From Flavobacteriales bacterium (GTDB lineage: Bacteria > Bacteroidota > Bacteroidia > Flavobacteriales_F > PHOS-HE28): a stretch of 64,000 nucleotides of DNA. The notes beneath the pieces were generated by a model. That model searched no databases. It worked only from the letters and a program-made list of their open reading frames with translations, and was not told the DNA's origin. Made by a program: the position numbers and the translations under genes. Location of the stretch: contig JAMLHB010000001.1 of the NCBI GenBank assembly GCA_023957375.1, positions 1,218,245 to 1,282,244 on the forward strand, in the 5' to 3' direction. How positions within the stretch are numbered: the stretch's first letter is position 1; each line of letters opens with the position of its first letter. Positions 1 through 64,000 of this stretch are shown piece by piece.

Positions 1-1702
1 GGCTGAATGCGTAAAAATCACCGTCCGATGGGGATGCGATCAACGCGCTAATGTTCGCCGGCAGCGCCACGCTCGCGGCCGTGGCAAATGTGTTGTTCGG
101 TTCCAGCGTGTCCAGGCAAGGCACCGGCGTGGTGAACACGAAGCTGCCGCTGAAGGCCGACGCGGAGCCGCCGCAATCGCTCATCACTTGGAATTCGTAA
201 GCCGTGTTCTGGGTGAGGCCGGTAATTCCGTAGCTGTTGGTGGTGAGTCCGGCAACCGTGGTCCATGTGCTGCCGGCCTGCGGTTTCCAACGCAGGGTGT
301 ACCCGGCCACCCCGAGGTTGGGCCAAGTGAGCGTGGCGGAGTTGCTGTACAGGTTGCTTACGGACAGCGGCCCCGGCGGGTCGCAGCTGGTGCCGCATTG
401 GGCCAAGCATGAGGCCGCATTGATGCGGTTGCGGATAAAGGCGGCGGGCTGGGGCCCGAAGCCGTTGTTGAAGTTGATGCCTACGCCGCCGATCAGGTGG
501 CAATAGCTCATGATGGTGCCCCCACCCGTGGGCAAGGAGGCCGTGGGGCACGAACCTTCCGTGTAGCCCGCTGCGGGGCCGCAGCCATCGATGGCCGTGC
601 CGTTGCCGTTCCAGGCACAGGCATGGGTGTGCGGCGAACCGAGGTTGTGGCCTTGCTCGTGGGTTACCACGTTGACGCTCCAACTGTACGTGGGAACGTT
701 TGAATACCCGGTGCCGATGCCACTGTATGCCATGCGGTAAAAGGCACTGGAACAGAGGGTGTTCAGCCAGGCAATTCCTCCTCCGCCGCTAAACCCGAGC
801 AGGTGGGCCAGGTCTCCGTTGAAACTGGTGCGGTAGTTCCCGAACTGGTCCAGGTACCCACCGGTTGTAGGGCCGGTGTAGGGACTGGCCGTGTCCCAAA
901 CGAAAAGTTCCTGCAGTTGCACCTCGACCCCGTCGTTGTCAAAGATGATCGCACTTTGGTTGAAAAGTCCCGTGAGGTAGTTGGTGACCGCAGTGACGCT
1001 GCCCTTGTTCTGAAAGATCGGGTAATCCGCCTCCCAGTACAACTTCACGCAGCGGATGGTGCGGTCGCCGCCTTGATCCTGCAATTCGCTTGGATGAATG
1101 GCACCGCCCGTGTACCGCGCATCGCAGGTGAATGGGATCTGGGAGCGCAAGTCCTGTTCCAGGTAGATGATGTGCATGTCCGGCGCTCCCCCTCCGAGCC
1201 GGCCCAGCACCAGCGTTCCATGGTCCCCGCTCACCATGGCCATCAGTTCATCGCCGAAGATGCTCAGCCCGGCCACGGAATGGTTGTCTCCTTGCATGCG
1301 GCCCCGGTAGTGCAATGCCGGAGCAGCGGGTACGTCGCCCCCGCTGGAAGTGGTCACCTTGAAGCCGTCCGCAAGGGGTTGCCATTTCTCCAGCTCAAGG
1401 GCCACCGGGCCGTCCGCCGTGGGCAGGGTGACCGTGATGTAGGGCGGGGCCATGGCCAGCATGTGGGCCACCACGGGCATGTTCATCCGCAACACGTTGG
1501 CGCGTTTGCATTCGCTTTGCCACAGCGCGTCAGTCTTGGCATCCTGTGGTACCTCAGCAACAAGCTGAACCGGGGTGAACGCCACGCCGCTGGCTTTCAA
1601 CCCGTCTATCCGTGCTGCCACCTGGCCTTCACCGGGGCGGCCATGGGCGTGGAGCAACTGGCCAAAGCCAAATACAAAGATCAGCAGCAGGGAGCGGAGC
1701 AT
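1..1702 (-). CDS. Secreted reprolysin-like zinc metalloprotease, 3' end off the window
   Basis: The minus strand is open from an ATG at 1702 to the window edge, about 567 codons without a stop, so the C-terminus is missing. Residues 1-20 form a signal peptide (MLRSLLLIFVFGFGQ...). A zincin site HEQGHNLGSPHTH begins near residue 348 and is followed by a Met-turn-like IMSYCHL, the arrangement of metzincins of the M12B/reprolysin type. After the catalytic domain comes an FN3-like domain (CDPPGPLSVSNLYSNSATL...) and then what looks like the start of a PPC-type domain (LDTLEPNNTFATAASV...). In this phylum such proteins usually end in a T9SS sorting tail, which would lie outside the window. The role is inferred as extracellular protein degradation. 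The substrate is unknown. Confidence 0.85.
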   Translation of the reverse strand, partial: MLRSLLLIFVFGFGQLLHAHGRPGEGQVAARIDGLKASGVAFTPVQLVAEVPQDAKTDALWQSECKRANVLRMNMPVVAHMLAMAPPYITVTLPTADGPVALELEKWQPLADGFKVTTSSGGDVPAAPALHYRGRMQGDNHSVAGLSIFGDELMAMVSGDHGTLVLGRLGGGAPDMHIIYLEQDLRSQIPFTCDARYTGGAIHPSELQDQGGDRTIRCVKLYWEADYPIFQNKGSVTAVTNYLTGLFNQSAIIFDNDGVEVQLQELFVWDTASPYTGPTTGGYLDQFGNYRTSFNGDLAHLLGFSGGGGIAWLNTLCSSAFYRMAYSGIGTGYSNVPTYSWSVNVVTHEQGHNLGSPHTHACAWNGNGTAIDGCGPAAGYTEGSCPTASLPTGGGTIMSYCHLIGGVGINFNNGFGPQPAAFIRNRINAASCLAQCGTSCDPPGPLSVSNLYSNSATLTWPNLGVAGYTLRWKPQAGSTWTTVAGLTTNSYGITGLTQNTAYEFQVMSDCGGSASAFSGSFVFTTPVPCLDTLEPNNTFATAASVALPANISALIASPSDGDFYAFS

Positions 1703-1962
1703 GGCAGGATCAGTAAGTGAATTGGATGTTGCAAGATAGGACGGCTCAACGGGTGCACAAGTTTCCCCGACATGGGAAGAATTTTCAGGCCAACCCGGTT
1801 GTAGGCGGGGCCCCTCAGGCGGGTTCATCACGGTAGGTTACGCCCAAGGGCCAAAACTGGTTGGCCGTTGCCAATTGTTAGCCACAACAGCAACGGGCAA
1901 CTGGCAAACAACTGCTGATCCTTCCGCAATACACGGCCTGCCCACTGCTAAAGGCACCGCCC

Positions 1963-4098
1963 CTACTTCAACCCCCGCTTCTCCAGCAGCGGCCCCACCT
2001 CAGCATCGCGACCGCGGAAGTCGCGGTAGAGTTCATCCGCAGGCTTGCTGCCGCCCTTGCTCAGGATCGTCTCGCGGAAGTGCATGCCGTTGGCGCGCGT
2101 CATGCCGCCGTGTTCCTTGAACCATTGGAAGGCATCGGCCTCCAGCACCTCGGCCCACATGTAGGCATAGTAGCCGGCGGCATAACCGCCGCCCCAGATG
2201 TGGCTGAAGTAGCAGGTACGGTAACGTGGATACGCGATCGGCAGGTCCAGGCCATAATTGGCCAGGGCGGCTTTCTCGAACTTCTCCGGGTCCTGCAGCG
2301 GTGCGTCGGCGGGCAGCATGTGCCATTGCTGGTCCAGCAGGGCCGCAGCTAAGTATTCGGTGGTCATGAAGCCCTGGTTGAACTTGCTGCTCTTCTTGAT
2401 CTTGTCCACCAGGGTTTGAGGCATAGCCTCGCCGGTCTTCCAATGCTTGGCATAATTGGCGAACACGTTGGGGTCGGAGGCCCAGTTTTCATTGAACTGG
2501 CTGGGGAGCTCCACGAAATCGCGCGGCACGTTCGTGCCGGAGAAGTAGGGGTACTTCTGCGTGCTGAGCAGCCCGTGCAGGGCATGGCCGAATTCGTGGA
2601 ACATGGTGGTTACCTCGTCAAAGCTCAACAACGCGGGCTGTCCGTCGGCGGGCTTCTTCACGTTCAGGTTCTGGGTGATCACGGGCTTCTGCCCCAGCAG
2701 GAAGCTTTGGTCCACAAAACTGTCCATCCACGCTCCGCCCTGCTTGCTGTCGCTGGCAAAGAAGTCGAAGTACACCAGGCCTACCGTGCCGCTGTCCGGG
2801 CCGAATACCTCGAAGACGCGGACATCGGGCTGATACACGGGCAGGTCTTTGCGCTCTTTGAAGGTGAGGCCGTACAACTGTCCTGCGGCGAAGAACACGC
2901 CATCGTGCAGTACGCGGTCCATCCCGAAGTACGGCTTGATCTGGCTTTCGTCCAGGTCGTATTCCGCCTTGCGCACCTTCTCGGCGTAGTAGTCCCAGTC
3001 CCATGGTGCGAGGGTGAATCCGCCCTTCTCCTTGTCGATCACGGCCTGCAGCTTGGCCGCCTCGGCCTTGAGGTTCTTCACGGCTGCGGGCACCATGCCG
3101 GTGAGGAGCTTCACGGCGGCATCGGGGGTCTTGGCCATTTGGTCTGCCAAGGAGTAGGACGCGTAATTGGGGAAGCCCAGCAGTTTGGCGCGTTCGGCGC
3201 GCAGTTGCGCCAGGCGGCTCACCGTGGCACGCTGGTCGCTGGAATCACCGGCCATGCCGCGGTTGATGGAGGCGGTGAAGATGCGCTCGCGCAGGGCGCG
3301 GTCCTTGATCTCCGCCAGCACCGGTTGCATGGTGGTGTTCTGCAGGGTGATCAGCCATTTGCCTTCGTGGCCCTTGTCCTTGGCGGCTGCGGCGGCGGCT
3401 TCGATCTCGGCGTCGCTCATGCCGTCCAGCTGTTTCTTGTCATCCACCAGCACGGCGGCGTTGTTCACGTTCTTCAGCAGGTTGTCCACAAAGAGCGTGG
3501 TGAGCTTGGATTCCTCCTCATTCAGAGCCCGCAGTTTCTTCTGGTCATCCGCATTGAGCAGCGCGCCCGCACGGACCATCTGCGTGTAGTAGCGCTCCAC
3601 CAAGCGGACGGAGACGCTGTCCAGGCCCAGGCTGTCCCGGCGGTCGTAGAGGCTCTTCACGCGGGCGAAGAGCTTCGGGTCCAGGTTGATGGCATCGCTG
3701 TGCGCGGCCAGCTTGGGCGCCATGTCCTTGTTCACCTCCTGAAGTGTGTCGTTGGTGTTGCTGGCCACCAGGTTGAAGAAGACCTTGTTCGCGCGCTTCA
3801 ACTCCTGGCCGCTCTTCTCCAGGGCGATGATGGTGTTGTCGAAGGTGGCGGCATCCGTGTTGTCCGCGATGGCCTTCACCTCGGCCAACTGCTTCTTCAT
3901 GCCCTCCTCCATCGCCGGGGCGAAGTCGCCGTTCTGGATCTTGGTGAAGTCCGGCGCGCCCAAGTAGAGGGTGCTTTCGGTGGCGAACGGATTTTCGCGG
4001 GCGGGTGCGGGGGTGGACATGTCGGTTTTCGTGGTGTCGCTCGTTCCACACGAAGCGGCGAGCAATAAGAGGGACAACGCGGCGAGGGAATGGTTCAT
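1963..4098 (-). CDS. dcp: M3-family peptidyl-dipeptidase, lipoprotein
   Basis: This 711-residue protein is a thimet-oligopeptidase/Dcp-like zinc peptidase. The HEFGHALHG motif starts at about residue 501, with the downstream Glu and C-terminal helical region typical of M3 enzymes. The ATG at 4098 is chosen because it gives a lipoprotein signal (MNHSLAALSLLLLAASCGTS) with the lipobox Cys near residue 17. The open frame runs 52 codons further upstream, but that stretch has no recognisable content. The enzyme is predicted to be anchored in the cell envelope and to remove dipeptides from short peptides. It stands alone. The downstream gene neighbour converges only after a 260-bp gap in which I see nothing. 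Confidence 0.9.
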   Translation of the reverse strand: MNHSLAALSLLLLAASCGTSDTTKTDMSTPAPARENPFATESTLYLGAPDFTKIQNGDFAPAMEEGMKKQLAEVKAIADNTDAATFDNTIIALEKSGQELKRANKVFFNLVASNTNDTLQEVNKDMAPKLAAHSDAINLDPKLFARVKSLYDRRDSLGLDSVSVRLVERYYTQMVRAGALLNADDQKKLRALNEEESKLTTLFVDNLLKNVNNAAVLVDDKKQLDGMSDAEIEAAAAAAKDKGHEGKWLITLQNTTMQPVLAEIKDRALRERIFTASINRGMAGDSSDQRATVSRLAQLRAERAKLLGFPNYASYSLADQMAKTPDAAVKLLTGMVPAAVKNLKAEAAKLQAVIDKEKGGFTLAPWDWDYYAEKVRKAEYDLDESQIKPYFGMDRVLHDGVFFAAGQLYGLTFKERKDLPVYQPDVRVFEVFGPDSGTVGLVYFDFFASDSKQGGAWMDSFVDQSFLLGQKPVITQNLNVKKPADGQPALLSFDEVTTMFHEFGHALHGLLSTQKYPYFSGTNVPRDFVELPSQFNENWASDPNVFANYAKHWKTGEAMPQTLVDKIKKSSKFNQGFMTTEYLAAALLDQQWHMLPADAPLQDPEKFEKAALANYGLDLPIAYPRYRTCYFSHIWGGGYAAGYYAYMWAEVLEADAFQWFKEHGGMTRANGMHFRETILSKGGSKPADELYRDFRGRDAEVGPLLEKRGLK

Positions 4099-59816: not shown

Positions 59817-61264
59817 TCAACGGGTCGCGGCCAATTTCACGGTCTGGAAACGGTCCACCACCACCATGTACAGCGCGGCCCCTTTTCCATGAAGGTCAAG
59901 TGCCTCGCTGCGCCCGGCCGTGCTGCCTACCTGGGCATCCAGCACCAAGCGTCCCTGAAGCTCATACACCTGCACCCGGTGCCGCCCGTCCGACAGGCCC
60001 AACAGGGTGAAGGCGCCACCGGGATCCCACACAGCTTGGAGGGCGGCGCCCGCCCTTACGGGTTCCTCCACCCCCAAGGTGGTGCAATTGGTGAAACCGC
60101 CCGTATAGCGCACCAAGCCGAAAAGGTCGGGACGCGGGGGGGATAGGGTTGGCCCGAGACGGCGCCGTACAGTGTATCGCGGTAGAAGGCGATCGGCATG
60201 AAGAAGTCCGCGAAATAATCGCCCTCGGGCAGGCAGAAGTCCGTGCTGTCCCAGGTGCAGATGCCCGCAGCCACCGGCATATGGTTCACGAAGCGGTATC
60301 CCCCGCTGATGTACAGCAGCCCGTCCCGCACCTGCAGGTCGCCAATGCCCGGGGTGTATTGGTCCGAGTAATTGTAGATCTGAAGCCCGCCGCCCACCGG
60401 TCCCAAGGACCGCCATGTTTCCCCATCCCAGCGCATGATGCCTTGGCCCGCGTTGCCCCCCGAATAATAGAAGCCCCCGCCTACGTACAGTTCCTCTTTG
60501 TATTCCGTCATTACGGCCACGTTCCCCACGCCCCCCATCAGGCAATGGTCGCAGATCGGCCCCCAGTCCGTGCCATCGTACTGCAAGGCATCCGTCCACC
60601 ACGGATCGTGCCCAACGAAACTGAAATTGCCCGCCACCACCAGCCTGCCTTGGAAGCGGATGATGTCCATGATCCGGGGATCGCCCAAGAAATTCAGTTC
60701 CGGCCAGCCTGGCAAGGGCTCCCAATGCCCCCCCACGCGCTTGGCCACGCCCTTGCACAACTGCCCGTCCGCATAACGGAAGTCACCCGTCGCAAATAAC
60801 TCCCCGTCCACCACGCGAAGGCGCCAGATGCCGCCATTGGAATTACCATTGTTGGCGAACGGGTGGTACATCTGGAAATTGCCGTACGGGTGCCATTGCC
60901 CGTCCACATAACAGGCAATGCTCCAGATCGAGTCGTTGTGCATCCGATCAAAACCTCCCGCCACCAGCAGTGTGTCGTGGTACACCACCGCCGATCTGGC
61001 CAAGTTCCCGCACAAGCCTACAGTATCCCATGCTGATCCATCATAGCGCAAAACAGGGTAGAATGAACCTTCGCCCTCCAAATGCATGGGCCCCTGGCTG
61101 GCCACGATCAGCCAATCATGTACGGTATCGGCGTAGCAGACCGTGGGTGCCGGTACCCACAGTGGAAGTCCCGCTTCCGCCCAGGGCTGGGCGGAAGCGG
61201 GACTTGCAGGGTGCAGACCCGCCAATGCGGTTAGGCATAGGGCTTGTACCAAATGCTTGTTCAT
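59817..61264 (-). pseudogene. Secreted propeller protein with frameshifted T9SS tail
   Basis: From the ATG at 61264 the frame encodes a signal peptide (MNKHLVQALCLTALAGLHPA) and a propeller protein paralogous to the next gene (VVYHDTLLVAGGF, VVDGELFATGDFRYADGQLC, EELYVGGGFYYSGGNAGQGI). It runs into a foreign frame at a C7 tract (plus-strand G7, 60137-60143) and stops at 60056. The neighbouring frame continues LFGLVRYTGGFTNCTTLGVE through a complete sorting tail to 59817. One extra C would restore the whole 483-residue protein. This is decay, phase variation or an assembly error. Confidence 0.88.
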
Positions 61265-61267
61265 GGC

Positions 61268-62701
61268 TCAATGGATCACGGTAAGCTTAGCTGCCTGCTG
61301 GCCATCCACCCACACCACATAAATGGCATTTGCCTTGGGCTGAAACCGGATGGGTTCCGCAAAGCCCGCCGCGCTGCTGATGTTCGCCCGGGCAGCTAAC
61401 CTGCCCAGCAGGTCCATCACACGAACGGTATGCTGGCCATCCGGCAGCCCGAACAGCATAACGCCGCCGGCTGGATCCCACACAGCATGGAGGGCGGTGC
61501 CCGCCCCTACGGGTTCCTCCACCCCCAAGGTGGTGCAATTGGTGAAACCGCCCGTGTAGCGCACCAAGCCGCTCAACCCGGGGAACGGGGCGGGATTGGG
61601 TAGGCTCGTAGCAGTGCCGTACAGCGTATCGTGGTAGAAGGCGACCGGCATGAAGCTGTCCGCGAAATAATCGCCCTCGGGCAGGCAGAAGTCCGTGCCA
61701 TCCCAGGTGCAGAGGCCCGTAGCCACCGGCAGGTGGTTCACAAAGCGGAACGCCCCGCTGATGTACAGCAGCCCGTCGCGCACCTCCAAGCCGCCAATGT
61801 TGGGGGGGTATTGGTCGGAGTAGTTGTAGATCTGCAAGCCGCCGCCCACCGGACCCAGGGAGCGCATGGTCTCCCCGTCCCAGCGCATGATGCCCTGGCC
61901 CGCATTGCCGCTGCCGTAATAAAAACGGCCACCTAAGTACAGTTCCCCCTTGTACTCCTCCATGCAGGCCACCCCATCAAAGCCCCCCATCAGGCAATGG
62001 TCGCACACCGGCCCCCAGGCCGCGCCGTCGTACTGCAGCATGGCCCTCCACCACGGGTTGAACCCGGGGAAACTGAAGGTGCCCACCACTACCAACTTGC
62101 CCTGGAAACGGATCACGTCCCTGATCCGGGGATCGCCCAAGAAATTCAGCTCCGGCCAGCCCGGCAAGGGTTCCCAATGCCCCCCCACGCGCTTGGCCAA
62201 GCCCTTACAGAGCTGTCCGTCCGCATAGCGGAAATCGCCCATGGCGTACAGCTCGCCGTCCACCACGCGAAGGCGCTGAATCTGGGACGGATTATTCCCG
62301 TCGGGTTGAGTACCTTGGAAATTGCCGTACGGGTGCCATTGCCCGTCCACGTAACAGGCAATGCTCCCGATCGAGGCATTGTGCATCCACTGAAATCCTC
62401 CCGCCACGAACAGCGTATCTTGGTACACCACCGCCGTCTTCATTTGGTGCCCGAACAGGCCCAGGGTGTCCCACGCGAACCCGTTGTAGCGGTACAGTGG
62501 GACATAGTATTGGTCCGTATCTATGACGATCTGGTGGAATCCCCCTGCAAGCAGTTGGTCGTGAACGGTATCTGTGTAGACCATGGTAGGTACAAATTGG
62601 CCAGGTGCCCCTGCAACTTCCCAATACTGGGAAGATGCAGGGGTGGCCAACAGGCAGGTCGATATGGAGGCCATCAGGCCAAGCGCTATCCTGGTTCCCA
62701 T
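61268..62701 (-). CDS. Secreted propeller protein with T9SS-like tail
   Basis: The protein has 477 residues. The signal peptide MGTRIALGLMASISTCLLAT precedes kelch-like or delta-60-like blades (VVYQDTLFVAGGFQWMHN, LRVVDGELYAMGDFRYADGQ, KGELYLGGRFYYGSGNAGQG). After LVRYTGGFTNCTTLGVEEPV a sorting-type domain begins (MLFGLPDGQHTVRVMDLLGR ... NAIYVVWVDGQQAAKLTV). It lies 3 bp upstream of the paralogue at 59817-61264, so the two form a recent tandem duplication and probably an operon. Confidence 0.88.
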   Translation of the reverse strand: MGTRIALGLMASISTCLLATPASSQYWEVAGAPGQFVPTMVYTDTVHDQLLAGGFHQIVIDTDQYYVPLYRYNGFAWDTLGLFGHQMKTAVVYQDTLFVAGGFQWMHNASIGSIACYVDGQWHPYGNFQGTQPDGNNPSQIQRLRVVDGELYAMGDFRYADGQLCKGLAKRVGGHWEPLPGWPELNFLGDPRIRDVIRFQGKLVVVGTFSFPGFNPWWRAMLQYDGAAWGPVCDHCLMGGFDGVACMEEYKGELYLGGRFYYGSGNAGQGIMRWDGETMRSLGPVGGGLQIYNYSDQYPPNIGGLEVRDGLLYISGAFRFVNHLPVATGLCTWDGTDFCLPEGDYFADSFMPVAFYHDTLYGTATSLPNPAPFPGLSGLVRYTGGFTNCTTLGVEEPVGAGTALHAVWDPAGGVMLFGLPDGQHTVRVMDLLGRLAARANISSAAGFAEPIRFQPKANAIYVVWVDGQQAAKLTVIH

Positions 62702-62704
62702 GGT

Positions 62705-64000
62705 TTAGCGTATTGCGGCCAATTTCACGGTCTGGAAACGGTCCACCACCACCATGTACAGCGCGGCCCCTTTTCCATGCAGGTCAAGTGCCTCGCTGCG
62801 CCCGGCCGTGCTACCTACCTGGGCATCCAGCACCAAGCGTCCTTGAAGGTCGTAAACCTGCACCCGGTGCCGCCCGTCCGACAGGCCCAACAGGGCGAAG
62901 GCGTCACCAGCCTCCCACACGGTATGGAGGGCGGAACCAGGAGCCACGCTTTGCTCCGGTTGCCCGATGGTGAGCTCATCACAGAACTCGGTGATGAAGC
63001 CGTCCGAGTAGGCGCCTTGCAGGCCTTGGTAGTTGTAGTGCGGATTGAAGAAATAACCCGCATCCTCCTCACCGGCCAAGGGGAAATAGTTATCTGGGGC
63101 GTCCTCCGGCATGGTGGTGTAGCCCACCGCATACAGGGAGGCCCCCACCCGGTGGATGGCCGTTATGTTCTGTGGCTGCCCCAAGCCTCCGGCATTGCCG
63201 CCGAACAGGGTGGACCACATGCGGTCCTGGTTCAAATTGAACCGCACAAGGAAAGCGTCCAGGGCCATGTTGTCTTCATCCACCTGGTATGCGGGCTGGA
63301 AATAGTGCCCTGCCCACTGCATGGGGGCAAACTGGTCGTCGTTGGTATATCCGCCGATCGTCAAGTCGCCATTGCCCTCCACATGCAGGCAGTAGGGCGA
63401 GTGGTTTCCGCCATGGCCCAAATAACTGATCCACGCGGGATCATTGCTCCCATCGCGGAAGCGGGCCACGAAACCGTTCCAGCCGTTGGGGGTATTGTCG
63501 TACCAGCCCGTTCCGTTCACCATGGTGTTCAACACCCCGCATTTCCCGGTGAGGTACAAGTCCTTGGCAAGGCCCAAGCCTTGGGGCGCCAGATCGTCGG
63601 TGGAGGGGCCGCCGAAATACGTGGCCCATTGGCGCACACCGGCATAGTTGAGCTGGAGGATGAAGATGTCCTGCCCACCATGGTGCGTTTCCATGAAGTT
63701 GGGGGCCGTCCCATGCACCGGAATGTCCGGGCTGTTTGTGTTGCCCGCCAAGATGATACGGTCCGGGTTGCAACGCACCAAGGCCCTGCTTTCCGTGCCA
63801 CTGCCGCCGTAGAACGCGCTCCACTGCACGTTGTCGCCCGTACTGAACAGGGCCACGTACGCATCCCCGTTCCCTTGGTAAGGAAAATTGGCCAACGGGT
63901 TGGGCAAGTCCAGGTTACCCTGTGTGGTGCCGGAGATCAGCAGGTTGCCGGTATAAGGCTTCACGTCCACGGCCTGCACGGAGGTATGCTGCACGCCAAT
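62705..64000 (-). CDS. SBBP-type secreted propeller protein with T9SS tail, N-terminus off the window
   Basis: The frame is open to the window edge, so the start lies beyond 64000. The visible 431 residues hold SBBP/delta-60-type blades (VQWSAFYGGSGTESRALVRC, VRQWATYFGGPSTDDLAPQG, MWSTLFGGNAGGLGQPQNIT) and a sorting tail (LLGLSDGRHRVQVYDLQGRL ... AALYMVVVDRFQTVKLAAIR). The tail is about 95% identical in DNA to that at 59817-60010, although the propellers differ. It ends 4 bp before the next gene. Confidence 0.9.
   Translation of the reverse strand: MGVQHTSVQAVDVKPYTGNLLISGTTQGNLDLPNPLANFPYQGNGDAYVALFSTGDNVQWSAFYGGSGTESRALVRCNPDRIILAGNTNSPDIPVHGTAPNFMETHHGGQDIFILQLNYAGVRQWATYFGGPSTDDLAPQGLGLAKDLYLTGKCGVLNTMVNGTGWYDNTPNGWNGFVARFRDGSNDPAWISYLGHGGNHSPYCLHVEGNGDLTIGGYTNDDQFAPMQWAGHYFQPAYQVDEDNMALDAFLVRFNLNQDRMWSTLFGGNAGGLGQPQNITAIHRVGASLYAVGYTTMPEDAPDNYFPLAGEEDAGYFFNPHYNYQGLQGAYSDGFITEFCDELTIGQPEQSVAPGSALHTVWEAGDAFALLGLSDGRHRVQVYDLQGRLVLDAQVGSTAGRSEALDLHGKGAALYMVVVDRFQTVKLAAIR

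Follow-up and report, generated by a model that had tools for sequence, protein, structure and literature searches.

Mosaic C-terminal tails and a candidate 5' repeat switch in a tandem propeller operon of a Flavobacteriales bacterium

How do unrelated secreted proteins that are encoded side by side come to end in nearly the same C-terminal tail? This question is raised by a locus in the genome of a Flavobacteriales bacterium (GenBank assembly GCA_023957375.1), within a stretch of 64,000 nucleotides (nt) of contig JAMLHB010000001.1 (positions 1,218,245 to 1,282,244, forward strand; hereafter the window, to which bare coordinates refer). At one end of the window, three genes on the minus strand, which we call C, B and A in gene order, form a single tandem operon: C encodes a propeller of SBBP type (family P) and is followed by two genes for kelch-like propellers, B and A (family K). 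An earlier note on this DNA had proposed that the tails of these proteins, taken as sorting signals of the type IX secretion system (T9SS), move between genes as a cassette by gene conversion. Our analysis leads us to conclude that the tails of P-K operons very probably do swap by short-tract gene conversion, recurrently in the genus, while the protein bodies diverge and a repeat at the 5' end of the P gene stands as a candidate switch.

The mosaic tail of gene A

As the earlier note had recognized, the bodies of A (60056-61264) and B (61268-62701) are paralogous, with 69% amino acid identity across most of the body and a sister relationship at 100/99 support in a 15-row body tree. Their tails, which it had described as different, are indeed so. 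The tail of A shares with that of C a stretch of 220 nt, beginning 227 nt and ending 7 nt before the stop codon (59827-60046 in A and 62715-62934 in C, both minus strand), at 93.6% identity, close to the 95% first estimated, whereas B and C have only 22 nt in common, at the junction. In a three-gene alignment, A tracks B down to position 60023 and then tracks C from 60019 to 59827, just short of the stop codon, with the C-specific sites lying within 59827-60019. A maximum chi-square test on 250 informative sites places the best breakpoint between 60023 and 60019 (minus strand; B-like upstream and C-like downstream in gene direction), inside the interval of 60010-60030 suggested before; none of 20,000 permutations reaches the statistic, and the resulting p of 5e-5 is the floor of the permutation test.

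Upstream of the tail, C is not homologous to A or B; the chi-square test therefore chiefly places the switch, and the contrast in age rests on synonymous divergence (dS). This is 0.83 for the A and B bodies, 0.17 for the A and C tails and about 2.4 for the A and B tails, values that set the order of events: the exchange of the A/C tail came well after A and B had diverged. At the DNA level the tail is found three times in the genome, all copies adjacent at this locus, and a search of the genome returned no donor for B's tail past the shared junction and short chance matches. The A/C exchange may have run in either direction: the tails of relatives are themselves homogenized, and the approximately unbiased (AU) test does not decide between them. 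The bodies are unevenly diverged, with a dS of 0.46 for the final 120 codons of the alignment between 60056-61264 and 61268-62701 against 0.83 overall; bodies, too, may convert.

Might A and C instead have kept a common ancestral tail under strong constraint, with the tail of B alone diverged or replaced? B's tail is an outlier, the tails of close relatives are nearer the A/C type than the B type, and in a tree of the triad's tails alone the AU test keeps a clade of the two K tails (p 0.32), a point that weighs against a recent exchange, although the corresponding bodies pair at 100/99; the long branch of B's tail is the reason why the clade goes unrejected. Synonymous sites, however, agree as well in the A and C tails, at about a fifth of the dS of the bodies, the P tails of the genus do not form one clade, and even if B were the odd one out a recent A/C exchange would still be required. 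We therefore consider descent under constraint very unlikely.

As a mechanism, we propose that tail-coding segments of about 200 nt, the only P/K homology detected, recombine by short-tract gene conversion, and that non-reciprocal copying of a 190-220-nt stretch would have joined the P and A tails after the A/B split. Of the cassette by gene conversion put forward in the earlier note, the cassette stands on the mosaic, the dS values and the recurrence described below; the preference for conversion over crossing-over is drawn from the intact gene order P-B-A, for which a non-reciprocal copy is the simplest account.

Unequal crossing-over between tails, duplicating or deleting K genes, could also yield a mosaic. 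K copy number per operon ranges from 1 to at least 3, and in genome G023 the last K stop is followed by 22 nt of which 21 agree with the spacer and beginning of the first K, as would be seen if tail recombination had run past the stop or a K gene had been lost save for a remnant. In the triad, however, the operon is complete and it is the last gene, not the middle one, that bears the P-type tail, when a single crossover between the P and A tails would have deleted B; we regard crossing-over as unlikely. The G023 match, at locus L062 just after 1610-3007 (minus strand), is either a conversion tract that overran the stop codon or a leftover of a lost K gene, and the sequence after the middle K differs.

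An assembly or sequencing artefact is the least probable of the explanations, one to which we give hardly any weight. A is frameshifted close to a run of seven C, and the contigs of several relatives stop inside tails or repeats, but a single collapsed repeat would not give A and C tails with differences at about 6% of sites and with unlike flanks, and the pattern of tail sharing is found again in other genomes. The mosaic, the breakpoint, the young tail on an old body, the recurrence and the restriction to neighbours in our sample are all direct observations, and short-tract conversion is the reading under which we carry them forward.

Tail sharing across the genus and between neighbours

We then compared 45 genomes, all of one genus; a family-level search brought in no further genus. 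K relatives are present in 34 of these genomes and P relatives in 35. Forty loci were retrieved, from which 33 tails, 12 of them from P genes, were compared and placed in a tail tree. Seven of the 12 P tails are supported sisters of one or more K tails from their own operon and not of their orthologues; these belong to the source genome (G000) and to operons G017c10, G017c19 (where the K tail is partial, at a contig end), G023, G031c54, G010c30 and G033c13, the last of which is the weakest pairing (96/85). Forcing the 12 P tails into a single clade is rejected (AU p 1e-59), and the label P or K requires 11 changes on the tail tree, a number as low as that in 456 to 464 of 500 shuffles. A shared history of body and tail was the outcome that the earlier note had named as its refutation; the comparison of phylogenies that it called for instead yields separate histories.

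Nucleotide identities are consistent with this topology. Within six operons, P and K tails are 74-100% identical: 94% between P and A in G000, 100% in G017c19 (over the partial tail at the contig end), 83-84% in G023, 89% in G010c30, 74% in G031c54 and, in G017c10, 80% across the whole tail with 95.6% over 159 nt. P tails of different operons are 32-79% identical, exceeding 65% only among the operons of G017 and G031. In operons that share long stretches, the stretch starts between −183 and −227 nt from the stop codon and ends between −72 and at least +120. Because the tail is the sole detected homology between P and K, such a start boundary is expected, and by itself it is no evidence of a precise mechanism.

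Several observations weigh against a uniform process of exchange. Five of the 12 P tails, those of G031c30, G042, G016, G009 and G010c57, are not supported sisters of a K tail from their own operon, and that of G031c30 joins the K tails of other contigs (89/66); across G031, the P tail is 89-90% identical to K tails on other contigs. P/K identity is just 41-55% in G042, G016, G009, G033 and G010c57, with no shared stretch in G042, G016 and G010c57 and short ones in G009 (57 nt) and G033 (50 nt). Further, in G017 the identity between P tails (79%) matches that between P and K over the whole tail in G017c10 (80%). These data suggest that tails would evolve in concert inside many, though not all, operons of the genus while the bodies diverge.

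To gauge tail likeness elsewhere in the source genome, we used as a control 61 other tail-bearing genes from 20 stretches picked for holding clusters, treating bodies as unrelated when their local BLOSUM62 score was below 70. Among 1636 distant pairs with unrelated bodies, mean tail identity is 47.3%, with a 99th percentile of 55.9% and a maximum of 59.5%. The 24 neighbouring pairs with unrelated bodies average 49.6%, and three of them lie above the distant 99th percentile; indeed, identity above 60% is seen in these 3 of 24 neighbour pairs and in none of the 1636 distant pairs. The three are the genes at 327260 and 328201 (76%), 327260 and 329112 (74%) and 1080854 and 1081792 (62%), all on contig C2; the two pairs that involve 327260 depend on each other, their partners 328201 and 329112 being paralogues. 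The other 21 neighbour pairs show no excess of tail identity, which again speaks against a general process. In this sample, then, tail sharing between unrelated proteins tracks neighbourhood; it is seen at two places besides this operon, and most neighbours lack it.

The tails as sorting domains and the layout of the operon

Because the argument concerns an export signal, we asked whether the tails are T9SS sorting domains. Single-sequence scores fall below the cut-offs of the family models: the C tail reaches 14.4 bits against TIGR04183 (cut-off 23; 13.5 for the full gene) and 13.6 bits against PF18962 (cut-off 27), and the A and B tails have no match to either model in such searches. By contrast with these single-sequence scores, a profile of 19 tails aligns to eight tails of the same genome that do exceed the cut-off with an hhalign probability of 96.3% (E 2e-9). 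The tail is modelled as an immunoglobulin (Ig)-like beta-sandwich at the extreme C-terminus with a predicted local distance difference test score (pLDDT) of 92.0, and five of its six best structural matches are T9SS C-terminal domains (CTDs; RemZ, NucA, PorZ, FspA and mirolase entries, Z 8.2-8.6). Other Ig-like folds tie with these (DUF3244 at Z 8.9, glycosidase domains at about 8), so the fold alone cannot single out CTDs; the best Foldseek E value for the tail model is 0.0024, and no CTD is present among the seven weak matches of the tail profile to sequences of solved structures. The genome encodes SprA (2563.6 bits) and a T9SS sortase (1232.3 bits), along with at least 150 type A tail matches (150 of 214 candidates scored). 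Together, sequence profiles and models support the assignment of a T9SS-type C-terminal sorting domain to the end of each of A, B and C, and tail-dependent export is predicted for all three.

Swaps of CTDs from one cargo to another are reported to work inside a species but not across the two species tested (PMC11285876). If so, swaps would be harmless inside the cell, and a swapped tail would still export its cargo; the swaps in that work were engineered, whereas those considered here would be natural.

The operon itself is laid out compactly. Gene C covers 62705-64000 (minus strand) in the window, and its 868-codon frame runs past the window to position 1283555 of contig C1 of the source genome; it matches DUF7948 and SBBP. 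The earlier note rightly took the propeller at 62705 to be unrelated to the bodies of A and B, with the correction that the start of C lies beyond the window end. Gene B (61268-62701, minus strand) is an intact kelch-like propeller that starts with a signal peptide and whose tail (61271-61498, minus strand) is divergent. Residues 25-388 of its model (pLDDT 80.9) align with PorZ at Z 23.0 over 295 residues (root-mean-square deviation 3.5), and many other propellers match at a similar Z. Gene A consists of a body frame (60056-61264, minus strand, 402 codons) with a signal peptide and a kelch-like beta-propeller, cut early by a frameshift, and a T9SS-type C-terminal domain (59817-60047, minus strand, stop codon included) in a different frame; the extent of 59817-61264 given for A in the earlier note holds, with the correction that A is not a single open frame. 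A 7-C run (60136-60142, minus strand) lies close to the site of the frame change, which may stem from an error in sequencing, from slippage of the tract or from a genuine mutation.

B and A start with a signal peptide, as does C in the propeller frame once past its repeat. The start codons of both K genes stand 3 nt past the preceding stop codon, a spacing found at 12 of 12 junctions in a close group of loci (L057-L065 and L069) and at 2 of 12 in more distant ones.

Repeats at the 5' ends of P genes and their likeness to known systems

The signal-peptide region of C contains a (CT)20 tract (contig C1 positions 1283475-1283514 of the source genome; 5976-6015 of locus L057), 1.2 kb past the window end. 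As assembled, C's ATG is out of frame with the propeller, and all three frames of the tract read Leu-Ser. Only two places in the genome have a CT repeat of at least 16 nt, the other being (CT)15 at position 1745778 of the same contig.

We therefore counted repeats in 40 P 5' ends, defined as matches whose alignment starts at query residue 12 or earlier and whose 5' DNA was retrieved, scanning the 180 nt that end at about the mature start. A repeat is present in 20 of the 40, with units of 1, 2, 4, 7 or 8 nt and, among 21 tracts, none that is a multiple of 3. The background is 11 of 1369 windows of 180 nt in the source genome, 3 of 1363 in relatives and 2 of 61 other T9SS genes. The excess is significant (Fisher p 3e-26 against own-genome windows and 3e-8 against T9SS genes), with the proviso that these values overstate independence, given the near relatives L076/L077, L114/L115 and L126/L127, the cutting of L120 by a contig end and the masking upstream of L126. 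An in-frame ATG is lacking in 16 of the 20 repeat-bearing genes versus 5 of the 20 without a counted repeat (p 0.001). At random phase, two thirds of the genes would be expected out of frame; the observed 16 of 20 is compatible with a switch of that kind and proves none. In one orthologous pair, 98.6% identical over 1873 nt, the sole gap is C11 versus C9 in a run of C, and the ATG is in frame only with C9; a homopolymer error is possible.

Slippage of a short repeat in the signal-peptide region of P could toggle P and, by translational coupling, the K genes behind it. On an extended reading, to which we give even odds, this environmental genus would have independently evolved a contingency system for T9SS cargo like bab or opa, in which short repeats, arising time after time with many unit lengths in the signal-peptide region of a single propeller family, turn a translationally coupled P-K-K operon on and off, and tail-only conversion keeps export signals alike while the exposed propellers diversify.

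Other points weigh against a switch. Five genes lack an in-frame ATG without having a counted repeat, although one of them, L091, has nine C just beyond the counted stretch; seven of nine more distant P genes (from ten loci, L194 being dropped as a copy of L117) are repeat-free, and the other two carry 7-mers. In the C11/C9 pair the frame breaks a second time in both copies, about 110 codons further along, and neither gene is therefore intact as assembled. Long homopolymers are error-prone in assemblies, and assembled sequence is all that this evidence comprises.

The repeats might then be neutral low-complexity runs or assembly errors in decaying P genes, an account that we find possible but doubtful. 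P or K copies are broken inside the body in G042 and G031c30 and in copies of G001 and G002, and a P gene on contig C85 of G017 lacks most of its body. On the other hand, of the 16 P genes that have a repeat and no in-frame ATG, 14 retain an open frame of at least 800 codons, and units of five lengths arise at one place with no tract divisible by three. Taken together, the features of this locus resemble those of a phase-variable surface-protein locus with converting tails, with switching as a candidate only.

Some further observations touch these repeats and genes. At L060:4162-4446, on contig C85 of G017, a P mature N-terminus is fused straight to the last tail residues, with an intact K behind it. 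The near-identical P genes L114 (at about 1549) and L115 (at about 1519) have a common second frame break about 110 codons past the mature start, with no repeat there. Two further T9SS cargo genes of the source genome have poly-C runs close to their starts (C10 at C2:381576 and C9 at C3:404499). We ruled out (CT)n tracts as a marker of the P family only, since a second, intergenic class is present in the genus. In six genomes, at L097 (four tracts) and L098-L107, (CT)n is followed by a conserved element, with a hairpin of the GCCCCCGGTG...CACC(A/G)GGGGC type where the contig continues; Rfam returned no match on seven loci with this element. In G002, each of the four L097 tracts is followed, about 290-340 nt downstream, by tandem genes whose products look secreted.

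The Hop proteins of Helicobacter pylori, to which the bab adhesins belong, are barrels. No Hop-type outer-membrane barrel was found here: K models as a propeller plus tail, and P matches DUF7948/SBBP. The bab genes closely resemble this locus in carrying (CT)n in the 5' coding region, a few codons past the ATG, which puts the gene in or out of frame, and in undergoing gene conversion between loci whose proteins have a C-terminal region in common (PMC4552749). They differ in encoding outer-membrane proteins and not T9SS cargo and in being paralogous over whole genes, where the P and K bodies showed no homology to each other; switching is established for bab (PMC4552749) and is a candidate here.

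In H. pylori, oipA is likewise reported to be switched by a CT repeat of its 5' region (PMC10564699). Neisseria opa similarly has a short non-triplet coding repeat that varies between strains, in its case the pentamer CTTCT (PMC5320596), while P homologues differ in unit. The gingipains and HagA of Porphyromonas gingivalis are T9SS cargoes with common modules, including a conserved C-terminal domain, and recombination among them is reported; in the part of the source available, adhesin domains are exchanged among related proteins and strains, with no tail-only conversion between unrelated tandem neighbours (PMC5266723). The locus may work like bab or opa yet belongs to neither family.

Among the matches listed in our literature searches, the gingipain work alone joined T9SS and gene conversion. 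Natural tail-only exchange between unrelated T9SS cargoes was not found among those matches (searched as gene conversion, recombination, domain shuffling and tandem duplication), nor, among the open-licence papers matched, was any description of phase variation or repeats in T9SS cargo of Bacteroidota; in the parts available, neither PMC9862357 nor PMC3796261 concerns phase variation of such cargo. Within the literature searched, both the natural tail-only exchange between unrelated T9SS cargoes and the repeats in a T9SS cargo family thus appear to be new.

For the organism, these findings describe an export signal that would evolve as a unit of its own, independent of its cargo and homogenized within the operon; swaps would be tolerated if sorting domains are interchangeable within the species. 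Tail exchange would explain how unrelated proteins acquire or retain compatible T9SS tails, and it would make tail trees unusable as cargo trees. The repeat result, if true, would make T9SS cargo in Bacteroidota a further target of phase variation.

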